From NCBI RefSeq assembly GCF_030291075.1, contig NZ_CP127407.1, forward strand, positions 3,160,001-3,224,000: DNA of 64,000 bases. The letters run 5' to 3'. Below the pieces are notes generated by a model. The model worked only from the letters and a program-made list of their open reading frames with translations. It ran no database searches and was not told where the DNA came from. Origin of the DNA: Stenotrophomonas sp. 57. GTDB taxonomy: Bacteria > Pseudomonadota > Gammaproteobacteria > Xanthomonadales > Xanthomonadaceae. The position numbers and the translations under genes were made by a program. Shown here in pieces: positions 9,041 to 55,972 of the stretch; the first letter of the stretch is position 1; every line of letters starts with the position of its first letter.

Positions 9041-9215
9041 GTCGAAGGTGGGGCGGGTCCGTTTGCGGGGGTGTCCGCGGCATGGATGCCGCGGCCAAGC
9101 CCCCAGGGACGGGTTCACGGCGTCCCCCGCAACCGCACCCACCCCGCCATCCCGCGGAGTGCTGGCTGTTGCTGTTGCCTTCGCCTCTGCGGGTGCCGGG
9201 TGCAACCCGGCCAAC
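9041..9215. repeat. Two-stem palindromic element, copy A, with tail
   Basis: Outer arms at 9048-9072 and 9124-9148 are imperfectly complementary. The inner hairpin CCGCGGCATGGATGCCGCGG is at 9075-9094. The one-sided segment containing CCCAGGGACGGGTTCACGGC (from 9102) is unpaired. A tail with GTTGCTGTTGCC triplets follows to about 9215. The whole 364-bp gene-free stretch (8934-9297) is accounted for by the SMAG pair, this element, and a short promoter region before 9298. Confidence 0.75.
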
Positions 9216-25509: not shown

Positions 25510-26103
25510 ATGATGTTGTCGCTGAAGGATCACCTGCCGGCCTGGACCTACCCTTGGCTCCACGACGCGGGTATCGCCGTGAAGATCCTGCTCACCCTGC
25601 TGGCCGCGTGGCTGCTGCGGGTGATGGCGCGGCGCTTGATCCGCCGCTTCGCCGAGCACTACACGCTGCCGCCTGAGATGGCGATGGGCGCGCGCCGGAT
25701 CAGCAGTTTCGTGGTTTATTTCAGCGCAGTGCTGTACATCCTCAGCTTGCTCGGCGCCTCGCCGTCGGTGTTGTGGACCGCGTTCACCGGCTTCGCGGCC
25801 GTGGGTGCGGTGGCCTTCTTCGCAGCGTGGAGCGTGCTGTCCAACATCTTCTGCACGCTGCTGATCTTCACCACCCGCCCGTTCCGCCTGCATGACTACA
25901 TCGAAGTGCTGGAGAACGGCGAGAAGCCGGGCCTGAAGGGCCGGGTGATCGACGTGAACCTGATCTACACGACGCTGCAGGAAACCGGCGACGGCCACGA
26001 AGGCACGGTGCTGCAGCTGCCGAACAACCTGTTCTTCCAGCGCACGGTGCGCCGCTGGCGCGACCCGGGACAAGCGCCAGGCGGCATCCAGGGCGACGGC
26101 TAA
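25510..26103 (+). CDS. Small MscS-family mechanosensitive channel
   Basis: 197 aa, shorter than E. coli MscS (286 aa). Three hydrophobic helices are visible: about residues 20-40, 63-83 and 88-122. The third has the Gly/Ala-rich pore pattern (GFAAVGAVAFFAAWSVLSNIF), followed by the beta domain (RPFRLHDYIEVLE, then GRVIDVNLIYTTLQ and LPNNLFFQ). The C-terminal alpha/beta vestibule is largely missing. Expected to be an inner-membrane osmotic safety valve. It follows the 59-aa gene by 36 bp. Confidence 0.85.
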   Translation: MMLSLKDHLPAWTYPWLHDAGIAVKILLTLLAAWLLRVMARRLIRRFAEHYTLPPEMAMGARRISSFVVYFSAVLYILSLLGASPSVLWTAFTGFAAVGAVAFFAAWSVLSNIFCTLLIFTTRPFRLHDYIEVLENGEKPGLKGRVIDVNLIYTTLQETGDGHEGTVLQLPNNLFFQRTVRRWRDPGQAPGGIQGDG

Positions 26104-26117
26104 GGTTGGGGGATTCG

Positions 26118-26295
26118 GCAGGGCTGCGCCCTGCACCCGCAGATGCTTCAAACCAAGGCAAAGGCAACAGCAAAAGCATGCTATCCGTGGCATGGCGGGG
26201 TGGGTCCGGTTGCGGGAGACGCCGTGAACCCATCCGTGGGGGCTTGGCCGCGGCATCCATGCCGCGGACACTCCCGCAACCGGACCCACCCCGCC
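26118..26295. repeat. Two-stem palindromic element, copy B, with tail
   Basis: Outer arms 26194-26218 and 26271-26295 are a perfect 25-bp inverted repeat. The inner hairpin CCGCGGCATCCATGCCGCGG lies near 26248-26267. The conserved one-sided segment (here in the opposite orientation to copy A) is at about 26219-26247. The tail at 26118-26180 holds a terminal hairpin GGCAGGGC..GCCCTGC and GGCAACAGCAAAAGC triplets. The gene-free stretch 26104-26627 is filled by copies B and C, a central hairpin and a SMAG-like palindrome. Confidence 0.8.
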
Positions 26296-26331
26296 TTCGA
26301 CAGTTTCCTGCGGTCTGTTGGACATGCCGAT

Positions 26332-26372
26332 GGGGTCAGATCCGTTTTCCTGCGGAAAACGGATCTGACCCC
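26332..26372. repeat. GGGGTCAGATCCGTTTTCC hairpin
   Basis: A perfect inverted repeat of 19 bp arms with a 3-nt loop, positioned between copies B and C of the two-stem element. A nearly identical hairpin sits in the same place between copies E and F (55722-55761). Confidence 0.8.
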
Positions 26373-26398
26373 GATTTATTTCGATATCTGACAGATTT

Positions 26399-26424
26399 CA
26401 TCCACGCATGGCGTGGATCCACCC
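26399..26424 (-). repeat. Degenerate SMAG-like palindrome
   Basis: ATCCACGC / GCGTGGAT arms with GTGG in place of the GTAG head. Same stem as the palindromes at 8953 and 28989. Confidence 0.5.
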
Positions 26425-26444
26425 GATCGCGGAAATCTGTCAGA

Positions 26445-26618
26445 GGTGGGGCGGTGTGGGTAGGCAGGACCGTTGGCGCCATGGATGGCGCCATCGAGCC
26501 CCCAGGGACGGGTTTACGGCGTGTCCTGCCTACCCACACCGCCCCGCCAACCCACGGAATGCCCGCTTTTGACGTTGACGTTGACGTTGCTTCGGCAGGT
26601 GCAGGGCGCAGCCCTGCC
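26445..26618. repeat. Two-stem palindromic element, copy C, with tail
   Basis: Outer arms 26445-26470 and 26523-26548 match at 25 of 26 positions, but their sequence differs from copies A, B, D and E. The inner hairpin is TGGCGCCATGGATGGCGCCA, also different yet self-complementary. The conserved one-sided segment CCCCCAGGGACGGGTTTACG is at about 26499-26518. The tail carries a GACGTTGACGTTGACGTTGC triplet tract and a terminal GGGCGCAGCCC hairpin. Confidence 0.8.
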
Positions 26619-26627
26619 GAACAACCT

Positions 26628-26894
26628 TTACCTCAACTGGCTGTCCTTGCTGCCACGCCGGTTGTAGCCGGCATGCGCCTGTTCTTCGTCGTCACGCGCC
26701 TGCTGGCACGCCACGCACAGCCGGACACCGGGCACGGCCTGGCGCCGCGCCAACGGGATCGGCGCGTCGCATTCCTCACAGTGTTCCAGACCGGGGCCCT
26801 CGCGCAGCTGCCGCCGCGCGCGGGCGATCGCATCGTCGACGGTGGCGTCGATCTGGTCCTGGACCGCGCCGTCTCCCGCCCAACCGGTGGCCAT
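26628..26894 (-). CDS. DksA/TraR-type zinc-finger protein (YbiI-like)
   Basis: 88 aa. The N-terminus MATGWAGDGAVQDQIDATVD closely resembles E. coli YbiI. A C4 zinc finger is formed by Cys39, Cys42, Cys60 and Cys63 (CEEC..CVAC) with the family's APIPLARRQAVPGVRLC between. DksA relatives bind RNA polymerase through the secondary channel; short YbiI-type members have no established role. The second ATG (26894) is chosen because GGAGG is six bases before it; the ATG at 26900 abuts GGAGG directly. Confidence 0.85.
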   Translation of the reverse strand: MATGWAGDGAVQDQIDATVDDAIARARRQLREGPGLEHCEECDAPIPLARRQAVPGVRLCVACQQARDDEEQAHAGYNRRGSKDSQLR

Positions 26895-38440: not shown

Positions 38441-38536
38441 ACGCGGGTGGGTTGCGCAGGGGTGTCCGCGGCGTGGGTGCCGCGGCCAAGCTCCCAGGGA
38501 CGGGTTCACGGCGCCCCCTGCGCAACCCACTCGCGC
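38441..38536. repeat. Two-stem palindromic element, copy D (no tail)
   Basis: Outer arms 38443-38463 and 38513-38535 pair with about two mismatches and differ in sequence from the other copies. The inner hairpin is CCGCGGCGTGGGTGCCGCGG and the one-sided segment CTCCCAGGGACGGGTTCACG is conserved. The triplet tail and terminal hairpin seen in A, B, C, E and F are missing. Confidence 0.75.
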
Positions 38537-54204: not shown

Positions 54205-54366
54205 TTCGGCAGGGCTGCGCCCTGCACCCGCAGAGGCTTCAAGCCAAGGCAACGGCAACAGCAACAGCAAAAGCTGGCATTCCGTGGGTTGGCGGGGCGG
54301 TATCGGAGTGCGGGGACGCCGTAAACCCGTCCATGGGGGCTTGGCAGCCGCATCCATGCGGCTGAC
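54205..54366. repeat. Two-stem palindromic element, copy E, first part (cut by IS)
   Basis: The tail has GGCAGGGCTGCGCCCTGC and a GGCAACGGCAACAGCAACAGC tract. The 5' outer arm is 54291-54315 and the inner hairpin CAGCCGCATCCATGCGGCTG is 54345-54364. The IS3-family element begins at 54367. Confidence 0.8.
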
Positions 54367-54404
54367 TGATCTGGCCCCCTGAAAACGGACGCCATGAAGC
54401 CGTT

Positions 54405-55265
54405 TCATGCGACAGCCGGGAGCTGCCGGGCGTAGTTGTTAGGCGAGCGATAGCCCAGCGCCGAGTGTAGCCGGGCTGGATTATAGAAGCCGTGGATGTA
54501 AGCAGCGATGGATTGGCTGGCTTGTTCCCTACTGGCGTAAGGCTCGGCAGCCTCTTCTGTCTTGAGCGTCGCAAAGAAGCTCTCGGCCACCGCGTTGTCC
54601 CAGCAATTGCCAGGCCGGCTCATGCTTTGGACCACGTCATGGGACTGCAGCAGCTGGCGAAACTGGTTCCCCCAGTACTGCCCACCACGATCTGAATGGA
54701 AGATCAGGCCGGGTCGTTGTGGATGCAGAGCCCAAGCATTGGCAAATGCTTTCACCACCAGCTCTTCAGTCAGGCGCTTGGAAACGCTGTAGCCCAGCAC
54801 CTGCCGGGTCTGGACGCTGATGACCACGGCCAGATGCAGCCATCCCTGACGGGTGGGGACATACGTGATATCCCCGACCCACGCCGTCGGTCCGGTTCCG
54901 GGGGCAAATTGCCGATCCAGCAGGTTGGGGGCGAGCTGAGATGAGCCGCCGGAGGACTTGGGTCGAGATCGGCCTTTGGTCTTGCCCTGGATTCGCTCCT
55001 GGGCCATTAGCCGTGCCACGCGCTTGTGGCCGACCGGGTGATTCCTGGCTCGTAAGGCCTCGACCAGCCGACGTCGCCCATAACTGCGCTTGCTGGTCAC
55101 ATGAATGGCCCGAAGCTCGGTACGGAGGGCCGAATCGACATCGCACGTTTGGGCACACTGCCGGCGCAGGTAGTCATGGAATCCAGAGATAGAAACTCCA
55201 AGAACCCGACACAACAACCTAGTCGGGTAGTGAGTCCTTTGACTGGCGACGAAGGCGTACCTCAC
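54405..55265 (-). CDS. IS3-family transposase OrfB (integrase catalytic part)
   Basis: 286 aa counted from a GTG at 55265, the frame being open further upstream for fusion with OrfA. The DDE triad is visible: Asp in WVGDITYVPT, Asp in FHSDRGGQYWG, and Glu in AVAESFFATLK, 35 residues apart as in rve integrases. The N-terminal HTH_21-like region (SYGRRRLVEALRARNHPVGH) precedes it. It is made mainly as an OrfAB fusion by -1 frameshifting and catalyses IS excision and insertion. Confidence 0.93.
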   Translation of the reverse strand: MRYAFVASQRTHYPTRLLCRVLGVSISGFHDYLRRQCAQTCDVDSALRTELRAIHVTSKRSYGRRRLVEALRARNHPVGHKRVARLMAQERIQGKTKGRSRPKSSGGSSQLAPNLLDRQFAPGTGPTAWVGDITYVPTRQGWLHLAVVISVQTRQVLGYSVSKRLTEELVVKAFANAWALHPQRPGLIFHSDRGGQYWGNQFRQLLQSHDVVQSMSRPGNCWDNAVAESFFATLKTEEAAEPYASREQASQSIAAYIHGFYNPARLHSALGYRSPNNYARQLPAVA

Positions 55266-55555
55266 TTGGACTCTCTGGCAAAGAACGCCGCCGCTTTTTT
55301 TAGGATTTCCCGCTCCATCTTCAGATTGGCGTTCTCGGCCCGAAGGCGGCTGATCTCGCTTTCCAGATCGGTGGCCGGCCTGCGAGCCTCAGAGGTCAAC
55401 GACCGGCCAGCACGGACCGCGTCAAGCCAATTTGCCAGCGTCTTGACCGACATCTCTAGCTGACGGGCCGCTGCGGCAGGCCCGAGCGACTCGGCCAACT
55501 CCACGGCTTGGTGCTTGAACTCATCGGTGTAGCTACGACGGGTGAGACGGGACAT
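55262..55555 (-). CDS. IS3-family transposase OrfA
   Basis: 97 aa. A helix-turn-helix (RRSYTDEFKHQAVELAESLG, AAARQLEMSVKTLANW) is followed by a leucine-zipper region (ESEISRLRAENANLKMEREI). The end contains LKKAAAFFARE encoded across A7 (55301-55295), where a -1 slip enters the OrfB frame, which is open from that point. Binds the IS ends and regulates transposition. Confidence 0.93.
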   Translation of the reverse strand: MSRLTRRSYTDEFKHQAVELAESLGPAAAARQLEMSVKTLANWLDAVRAGRSLTSEARRPATDLESEISRLRAENANLKMEREILKKAAAFFARESK

Positions 55556-55619
55556 AAGGGACCTCCAAGTGCGATCAAAGTATCGCTTCTTGGCGTCCGC
55601 TGACGGGGGGCCAGATCAG

Positions 55620-55648
55620 ACACCCCGCACTCCGATACCGCCCCGCCT
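55620..55648. repeat. Two-stem palindromic element, copy E, second part
   Basis: The 3' outer arm 55624-55648 is the exact reverse complement of 54291-54315 (25 of 25). Bases 55620-55622 are the duplicated GAC. Unlike copies A-D and F, the one-sided conserved segment is on the other side of the IS. Confidence 0.85.
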
Positions 55649-55788: not shown

Positions 55789-55972
55789 ATCTGTCGAAGG
55801 CGGGGTGGGTCCGGTTGCGGGAGTGTCCGCGGCATGGATGCCGCGGCCAAGCCCCAGGGACGGGTTTACGGCGTCTCCCGCAACCCGACCCACCCCGCCT
55901 ACCCACGGATAGCCAGCTTTTGCTGTTGCTTCGACTTCGGCAGGTGCAGGGCTGCAAGCCCTGCCCAACACC
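55789..55972. repeat. Two-stem palindromic element, copy F, with tail
   Basis: Outer arms 55799-55823 and 55875-55899 match at 24 of 25 positions. The 5' arm is identical to that of copy B. The inner hairpin is CCGCGGCATGGATGCCGCGG, the conserved one-sided segment is GCCCCAGGGACGGGTTTACG, and the tail has TTTTGCTGTTGCTTCG and a terminal hairpin (GGGCTGCAAGCCC). It ends within a few bases of the recO stop. Confidence 0.8.

Follow-up and report, generated by a model that had tools for sequence, protein, structure and literature searches.

Dedicated sRNAs such as CsrB, RsmY and RsmZ contain several to many hairpins, and the CsrA site is known in a fuller, CANGGANG hexaloop form, with a preferred spacing between sites. 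GGA lies in the hairpin loops of these RNAs and their sites are paired (available text of PMC4383904 and PMC4333381), CsrA/RsmA sites generally coming in pairs (PMC4383904, text available in part) and A(N)GGA being the consensus given in the published text available. The repeat element described here shares the paired GGA loops, but unlike CsrB, RsmY and RsmZ it has two hairpins per copy, many copies and no promoter that we could see. The nearest system in logic is TwoAYGGAY RNA (RF01731), also built of two hairpins, whose AYGGAY loops are one form of ANGGAN; it has a poorly conserved outer stem, was predicted from its motif to bind CsrA and, unlike the element, is not described as a dispersed repeat in the available text of PMC4333381.

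Among dispersed repeats, YPAL/RU-2 of Yersinia is, like the element, intergenic and multi-copy, and its printed sequence (PMC2759123 Table 1b, text available in part), the core of which was compared by eye, likewise contains an ANGGAN-loop hairpin, CTCGAGCC, a second hairpin (TAC-ATGGAT-GTA) and TTTACGGCGT. The YPAL/RU-2 unit is however ca. 168 bp with an interrupted outer stem, whereas the spans bounded by the outer stem (P1) in our listed copies are mostly 102–118 nt (88–158 nt overall) and P1 is near-perfect. In the text available, YPAL/RU-2 is listed for Yersinia and Erwinia carotovora at ca. 168 bp (table in PMC2229807), is described as a MITE-like mobile element (PMC2759123, PMC2229807) that is mobile and co-translated with upstream genes (PMC2229807), and has targets that span or adjoin dyad symmetry (PMC2229807), with insertion accompanied by a 3–26 bp target duplication; a link to CsrA is absent from the same portions of both papers. 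Stenotrophomonas maltophilia carries further palindromic repeats, the SMAG/GTAG REPs and TIR families, some of them closely paired like copies of the element (PMC3733652, text available in part). SMAG/GTAG REPs are 20–40 bp palindromes with a GTAG head, whereas the element is ~100 nt and lacks that head (by eye), a distinction also drawn in a first-pass annotation of this DNA; TIR families flank a tyrosine transposase gene, which the element does not do at the three such genes found in this genome.

A repeat family with one shared fold

The DNA analysed is a 64,000-nucleotide stretch of the Stenotrophomonas sp. 57 genome (the window), in which the first-pass annotation had described six copies of one palindromic design. 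All six are present (Table 1), and they belong to a family of ~100-base intergenic repeats with a single shared folded shape, found in Stenotrophomonas and many related bacteria. In this fold a long stem, P1, closes a three-way junction bearing two hairpins, P2 and P3, the order on the strand with the GGA loops (GGA strand) being P1 5′ arm, (A)CCGT, P2, CGAGCC, P3 (CCC-ANGGAN-GGG), TTYACGGCGT and P1 3′ arm. P3, the third helix, is formed by the first 12 bases of a conserved one-sided segment that had been taken for simply unpaired, and its stem varies in matching pairs: CCC/GGG, TAC/GTA and TCC/GGA among 150 listed hits, with GAC/GTC, ACC/GGT and CAC/GTG in addition in the wide set. As first reported, each copy has its own outer arms and inner hairpin, self-matching yet unlike those of other copies, although the arms of copy F pair at 25/26 rather than 24/25. 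In copy C the two GGA are separated by 20 nt. A covariance model of the family (R1) recovers all six copies, copy E partially, with E-values of 2.4e-24 to 5.6e-11, a description and not an independent test because R1 was built partly from copies in this genome.

Table 1 Features of the repeat copies in the window (window coordinates).
Feature	Position	Strand	Details
Copy A	9044..9151	+	P1 23/28, most worn
Terminator-like hairpin, left edge of block	26114..26135	+	adjoins MscS-family gene
Copy B	26194..26295	-	P1 25/25; P3 loop ACGGAT
Copy C	26445..26548	+	P1 25/26, odd pair U·G; clearest copy
Copy C, P1 5′ arm	26445..26470	+	
Copy C, P2 hairpin	26474..26493	+	TGGCGCC-ATGGAT-GGCGCCA, ANGGAN loop; putative first CsrA/RsmA-like site
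Copy C, P3 hairpin	26501..26512	+	CCC-AGGGAC-GGG, ANGGAN loop; putative second CsrA/RsmA-like site
Copy C, conserved junction strand	26513..26522	+	TTTACGGCGT
Copy C, P1 3′ arm	26523..26548	+	
Inverted copy of terminator-like hairpin, right edge of block	26600..26621	-	
Copy D	38443..38535	+	P1 22/24
Copy E	54291..55647	-	arms 54291–54315 / 55623–55647, 25/25; IS3-type insertion sequence inside
IS3-type insertion in copy E	~54368–55618		bounds judged by eye; rve, HTH_21
Copy F	55799..55899	+	P1 25/26

Two further features were seen beside these copies. A 20-bp hairpin (GGGGTCAGATCCGTTTTC...) lies at 26331–26373, between copies B and C, and stretches resembling it adjoin other listed copies. 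IS3-type insertions, the one in copy E and those at genome positions 776743 and 3687726, have the same end at the same point in three element copies, between a P1 arm and P2, and the copies at 932153 and 1818957 hold short IS3-type remnants at that point; the IS3-type element looks site-specific for the repeat.

Abundance and spread

Searching the 4.44-Mb genome with CCCAGGGACGGGTTTACGGC and up to three mismatches returned 78 family matches, against none for a reversed-pattern control. In the genus, CCCANGGANGGGTTYACGGC with one mismatch matched 48 of 61 genomes (control 0), and across the order the CCCANGGANGGGTTYACGGC search matched 56 of 299, an upper figure because the reversed control hit once and, among 30 fetched loci, at least four (L133, L134, L140 and L141) are unlike the element. 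An exact scan of named genome contigs matched at least 119 stretches, in Stenotrophomonas, Xanthomonas, Arenimonas, Microbulbifer, Marinobacter, Rheinheimera, Methylotuvimicrobium, Saccharospirillum and Yersinia proxima, among others. At the level of the class, R1 (E up to 1e-4) found matches in 44 of 229 genomes and 39 of 195 sampled genera, with up to 18 candidates scored per genome, rough E-values, and in four of the 44 genomes just a single weak match (E 1.8e-5 to 5.2e-5). The family is not confined to Stenotrophomonas.

The Yersinia proxima copy (L168) is matched by R1 at 63 bits, and Rfam RF02770 Ysr224 matches it above gathering (L168 375–481, minus, 94 bits) on the strand opposite the GGA strand. 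With the YPAL/RU-2 core, this shows the earlier statement that no named element has this layout to be wrong. As the Ysr224 strand is opposite the one whose fold is conserved, the modelled strand may deserve review. Hits of Ysr224 to the window copies carry no weight, since they fall short of gathering and unrelated models of microRNA hairpins score at least as well. A known Rfam RNA was otherwise rejected as an identity: nothing in the window exceeded gathering, and 18 other loci gave only RNase P, three tRNAs and a TPP riboswitch. RF01731 was not among the Rfam matches listed at gathering, at E up to 10 (copies B and C) or at E up to 0.01, and the E-up-to-10 listing for these two copies contains neither CsrB nor RsmZ.

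Covariation across the family and at one locus

Alignment A1, comprising 51 sequences, one per arm cluster, gave a covariation score of 0.882 vs. 0.197 ± 0.011 when shuffled, and at most 0.18 when the structure was slid by one to three columns; both sides change in all 22 P1 pairs. Two of the five covariation measures, those that use only pair and type counts, did not exceed the shuffles (38/500 and 108/500 were as high); these count-only measures are saturated. A further 26 copies, drawn from 24 genomes, make up alignment A2, which was built on R1 and is thereby biased towards the R1 structure; it scored 1.037 vs. 0.215 ± 0.017 shuffled, with 98.8% paired, and two of the three P3 pairs change on both sides. 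The covariation in A1 is overwhelming.

To follow a single copy through the genus, that at genome position 1719874 was traced via its flanking DNA in 30 loci (our own and 29 others). The core is present in 27 of these and a paired 26–28-bp P1 in 25; L293 and L307 have the core with the 5′ side replaced, whilst of the three coreless loci L295 and L311 have an apparent 3′ arm alone and L302 is another site. Over their first 22 nt, the 3′ arms of these 27 take 12 distinct forms, and no fewer than five arm types are clearly different; some close relatives (L305/L309, L306/L310 and L296/L301) are separated by a single-step double change, and G·U pairs occur in L287, L299 and L308. The alignments and this locus support the proposal that compensatory change maintains the fold.

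The same locus bears on whether a fixed core has been inserted into many pre-existing palindromes, the arms being target sequence. The dyad-associated targets of YPAL, and the position of the window block at a terminator-like dyad, would suit such an origin, but one orthologous copy at 1719874 has these clearly different and still paired arm types, its arms differing because they evolve in pairs and not because they landed in different palindromes, and the apparent lone 3′ arms of L295 and L311 speak for deletion rather than an empty palindrome. Insertion into palindromes is contradicted at this locus by the paired arm changes, and we give it hardly any credence.

Asymmetry between the strands

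Mismatches in P1, read on the GGA strand, comprise 234 G·U and 48 A·C among the 225 elements with a clear P1, under equal penalties for all mismatches and with 53 of 278 elements excluded for a P1 score <14; this count supersedes an earlier, G·U-favouring scoring (227 vs. 33). The G·U:A·C ratio is 56:18 in this genome alone, 67:18 with one element per arm cluster (p = 8e-8) and 12:2 in A2, whilst the P2 stems (G·U 5, A·C 2) are too uniform to give a usable strand signal. A cruciform, or blind repair, predicts equality, so the excess of G·U indicates that one single strand folds; of the two forms first suggested, DNA cruciform or RNA, the cruciform is thereby set aside and the single-strand fold stands. 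The excess does not separate RNA from single-stranded DNA, because the latter also tolerates G·T wobbles, and strand-biased deamination would likewise predict it; were that cytosine deamination on the transcribed strand, the GGA strand would therefore be transcribed. RNA is the likelier form of the folded strand.

Arm identity is very high in many copies (e.g. 25/25 or 28/28), which is what template switching would produce if it copied arm onto arm, giving matching without selection on the fold. Such templated repair would be blind to the kind of mismatch, yet G·U exceeds A·C by ~5:1; this excess, and loops that remain fixed on varying stems, would need selection or strong strand-biased mutation, e.g. 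cytosine deamination on a transcribed strand. We consider templated repair very unlikely.

Loops and the CsrA/RsmA site pattern

When the 12 P3 positions were left free, the P3 loop read ANGGA in 146 of 150 listed hits from eight related genomes, with all four bases occurring at both N positions. The P2 hairpin, which was unused in any search and could be parsed in 242 of 278 elements, has GGA in its loop in 229 of those 242. The wide set shows six P3 stem types and ANGGAN in 23 of 24 parsed hairpins, the 24th resembling a chance match. Of at least 257 elements, 182 have their two GGA spaced by 20 nt. The element thus has what characterises CsrA/RsmA-binding RNAs, GGA in the loops of paired hairpins in the form A(N)GGA, and from this pattern it is likely to bind CsrA/RsmA. 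The first-pass annotation had proposed the unpaired bulge as a recognition site; the two ANGGAN hairpin loops are more likely to be the recognition sites than such a bulge.

The genome has a single csrA gene, whose product is close to solved CsrA/RsmE chains and has Leu4 and Arg44 (by eye), residues that we take to contact RNA. Across the class survey, CsrA was found in 40 of 44 carriers of the element vs. 154 of 185 other genomes (p = 0.25), i.e. no association, and one carrier (G539, 98% complete) gave no CsrA hit in a search run without a positive control. A literature search mostly confined to papers outside subscription, with PMC4383904 and PMC4333381 included as far as their text was available, showed no link between the element repeat and CsrA.

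A second repeat module, GGGTTGGGC-AGGAC-GCCCAACCC ... GTGTGCGC-AGGACA-GCGCACAC, was noticed in 15 distinct copies among the fetched loci (e.g. L032 1588, L080 1546 and L307 1454). It stands directly upstream of the element core in nine of the 15 cases and replaces the 5′ part of some copies; its loops contain GGA in 12 of 15 first hairpins and 15 of 15 second hairpins, the second on three stem types.

Elsewhere in this genome, an RsmZ search found nothing, without a true positive control, and a CsrB search gave one sub-threshold hit at a place other than the element. This CsrB/RsmB-like RNA (G000:C1:1057300-1057599; L378 801–1100, +) scores 26 bits to RF00018, below gathering, with E 2.4e-5 for 601 bases. 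It has eight GGA in hairpins, compared with a mean of 2.2 and maximum of 8 in 300 mononucleotide shuffles, whilst its plain GGA count, 12, falls in the ordinary range for shuffles (mean 7.9, max 14). It is a candidate for a dedicated RsmA decoy of Stenotrophomonas, so that a decoy may already exist in the genome.

Gene context and mobility

When this genome, the loci of the genus and those of other genera are pooled, convergent genes flank 70 copies and divergent genes 32. These counts use genes predicted by a codon-usage script and omit copies at locus edges, 12 copies that fell within a predicted gene, and the loci of the order-wide search; for this genome, 81 table rows stand for 78 copies. 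In this genome the 3′ side has a median distance of ~80 bp from the stop codon of the opposed gene. In tandem contexts the GGA strand is sense to its neighbours in 52 cases and antisense in 53, no sense bias, so there is no sign that it is preferentially read from neighbouring genes; no promoter-like site was found at 26060–26680, around copies B and C, and by eye no upstream sequence is common between genera.

The enrichment between convergent genes, and the short distance to the opposed stop codon, are what a bidirectional transcription terminator, or an mRNA 3′-end stabiliser, acting without CsrA would show. By eye, though, most listed copies have no T-run directly after P1, a terminator scan of 26060–26680 picked up no more than a spacer hairpin and, next to copy B, a weak stem of 5 bp, and the genes at the window locus are adjoined by terminator-like hairpins of their own. 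Such a role would also leave the ANGGAN loops unexplained, and we judge it highly improbable.

A comparison of sites between relatives, which the first-pass annotation had called for, shows that the window locus differs in its content of elements. We fetched 30 loci (our own and 29 others) downstream of the MscS-family gene: four (L349, L368, L371 and L372) have only 10–42 bp before the next gene, 16 have 272–1357 bp, in which the number of elements detected ranges from zero to two and their type changes, and in ten no next gene was found within the fetched stretch. At either edge of the block in the window stands a copy of a terminator-like hairpin, the two copies being inverted, whereas L349 has this hairpin once; a direct duplication, of the kind given for YPAL, was not identified. 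Copies <2 kb apart are arranged head to head (minus then plus) in nine of nine pairs, e.g. 26194–26548 in the window, and in seven of the nine the cores are 269–324 bp apart.

A block present in some relatives and absent from others, the head-to-head pairs, the equal tolerance of single-stranded DNA for G·T wobbles and the description of YPAL as MITE-like in the text available would all be expected of a purely selfish repeat with strand-specific single-stranded DNA hairpins, its loops being transposase contacts and RNA having no function in it. A link to a transposase, suggested earlier as a check, did not emerge for the Y1 family: the three Y1 transposase genes found in the genome are adjoined by other repeats and have no element match within 24 kb, for which reason we also rejected a self-complementary TIR family of S. 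maltophilia (PMC3733652, text available in part) as the identity of the element. Replication-strand bias is likewise absent (40 vs. 38, or 43 vs. 35 with another guess of the terminus, the origin being inferred by eye from position 1, where a DnaA-like protein is encoded). Which loop positions are free and which are fixed agrees with the CsrA/RsmA site, and one locus has been retained across many species with its arms compensated; a selfish repeat of this kind therefore seems unlikely.

Proposed function and significance

The best reading of these sequences is a mobile, widespread RNA repeat that would present a paired CsrA/RsmA site. We regard it as on balance probable that the repeats represent an old YPAL-type RNA element, mobile in part, whose two loops dock CsrA/RsmA, serving as a decoy or a local RsmA dock. 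Counting against this are the even split of sense and antisense copies, the failure to find a promoter-like site around B and C or upstream sequence common between genera, the opposite strand of Ysr224, the lack of association with CsrA, the carrier that gave no CsrA hit and the sub-threshold CsrB-like RNA, as well as the P2 stems with no usable strand signal and the two covariation measures that did not exceed the shuffles. On this proposal the GGA strand would be transcribed and fold into the long, near-perfect P1 and three-way junction, P2 and P3 would each expose a loop of CANGGANG type, the two GGAs usually lying 20 nt apart, and both loops could clamp one CsrA/RsmA dimer. Copies would have different yet matching arms because the P1 sequence drifts freely while pairing. 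Each transcribed copy might then be a small decoy, or a local RsmA dock on the transcript that carries it, and dozens of dispersed copies could form a distributed RsmA buffer; among these uses of CsrA/RsmA binding, the decoy is our best guess. Transcription, CsrA/RsmA binding, and titration or action in cis we infer from the fold and the loop pattern.

Bacterial intergenic repeats are mostly viewed as debris, terminators or DNA-level sites. In this repeat family a precise single-strand fold has been conserved through many genera whilst almost all of the stem sequence has turned over, and the loops suggest that mobile DNA has spread binding sites for the master regulator CsrA/RsmA. If binding is true, mobile repeats would be tied to this global regulator, a function would be on offer for YPAL, known in Yersinia since 2006, and the family would supply a natural set of covarying dual-site CsrA ligands. 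More tentatively, and with slightly less than even confidence, the family may be a Gammaproteobacteria-wide mobile repeat with a two-site CsrA/RsmA dock, acting as an evolvable RsmA sponge or placing host transcripts under RsmA control, so that transposition would rewire the post-transcriptional network.
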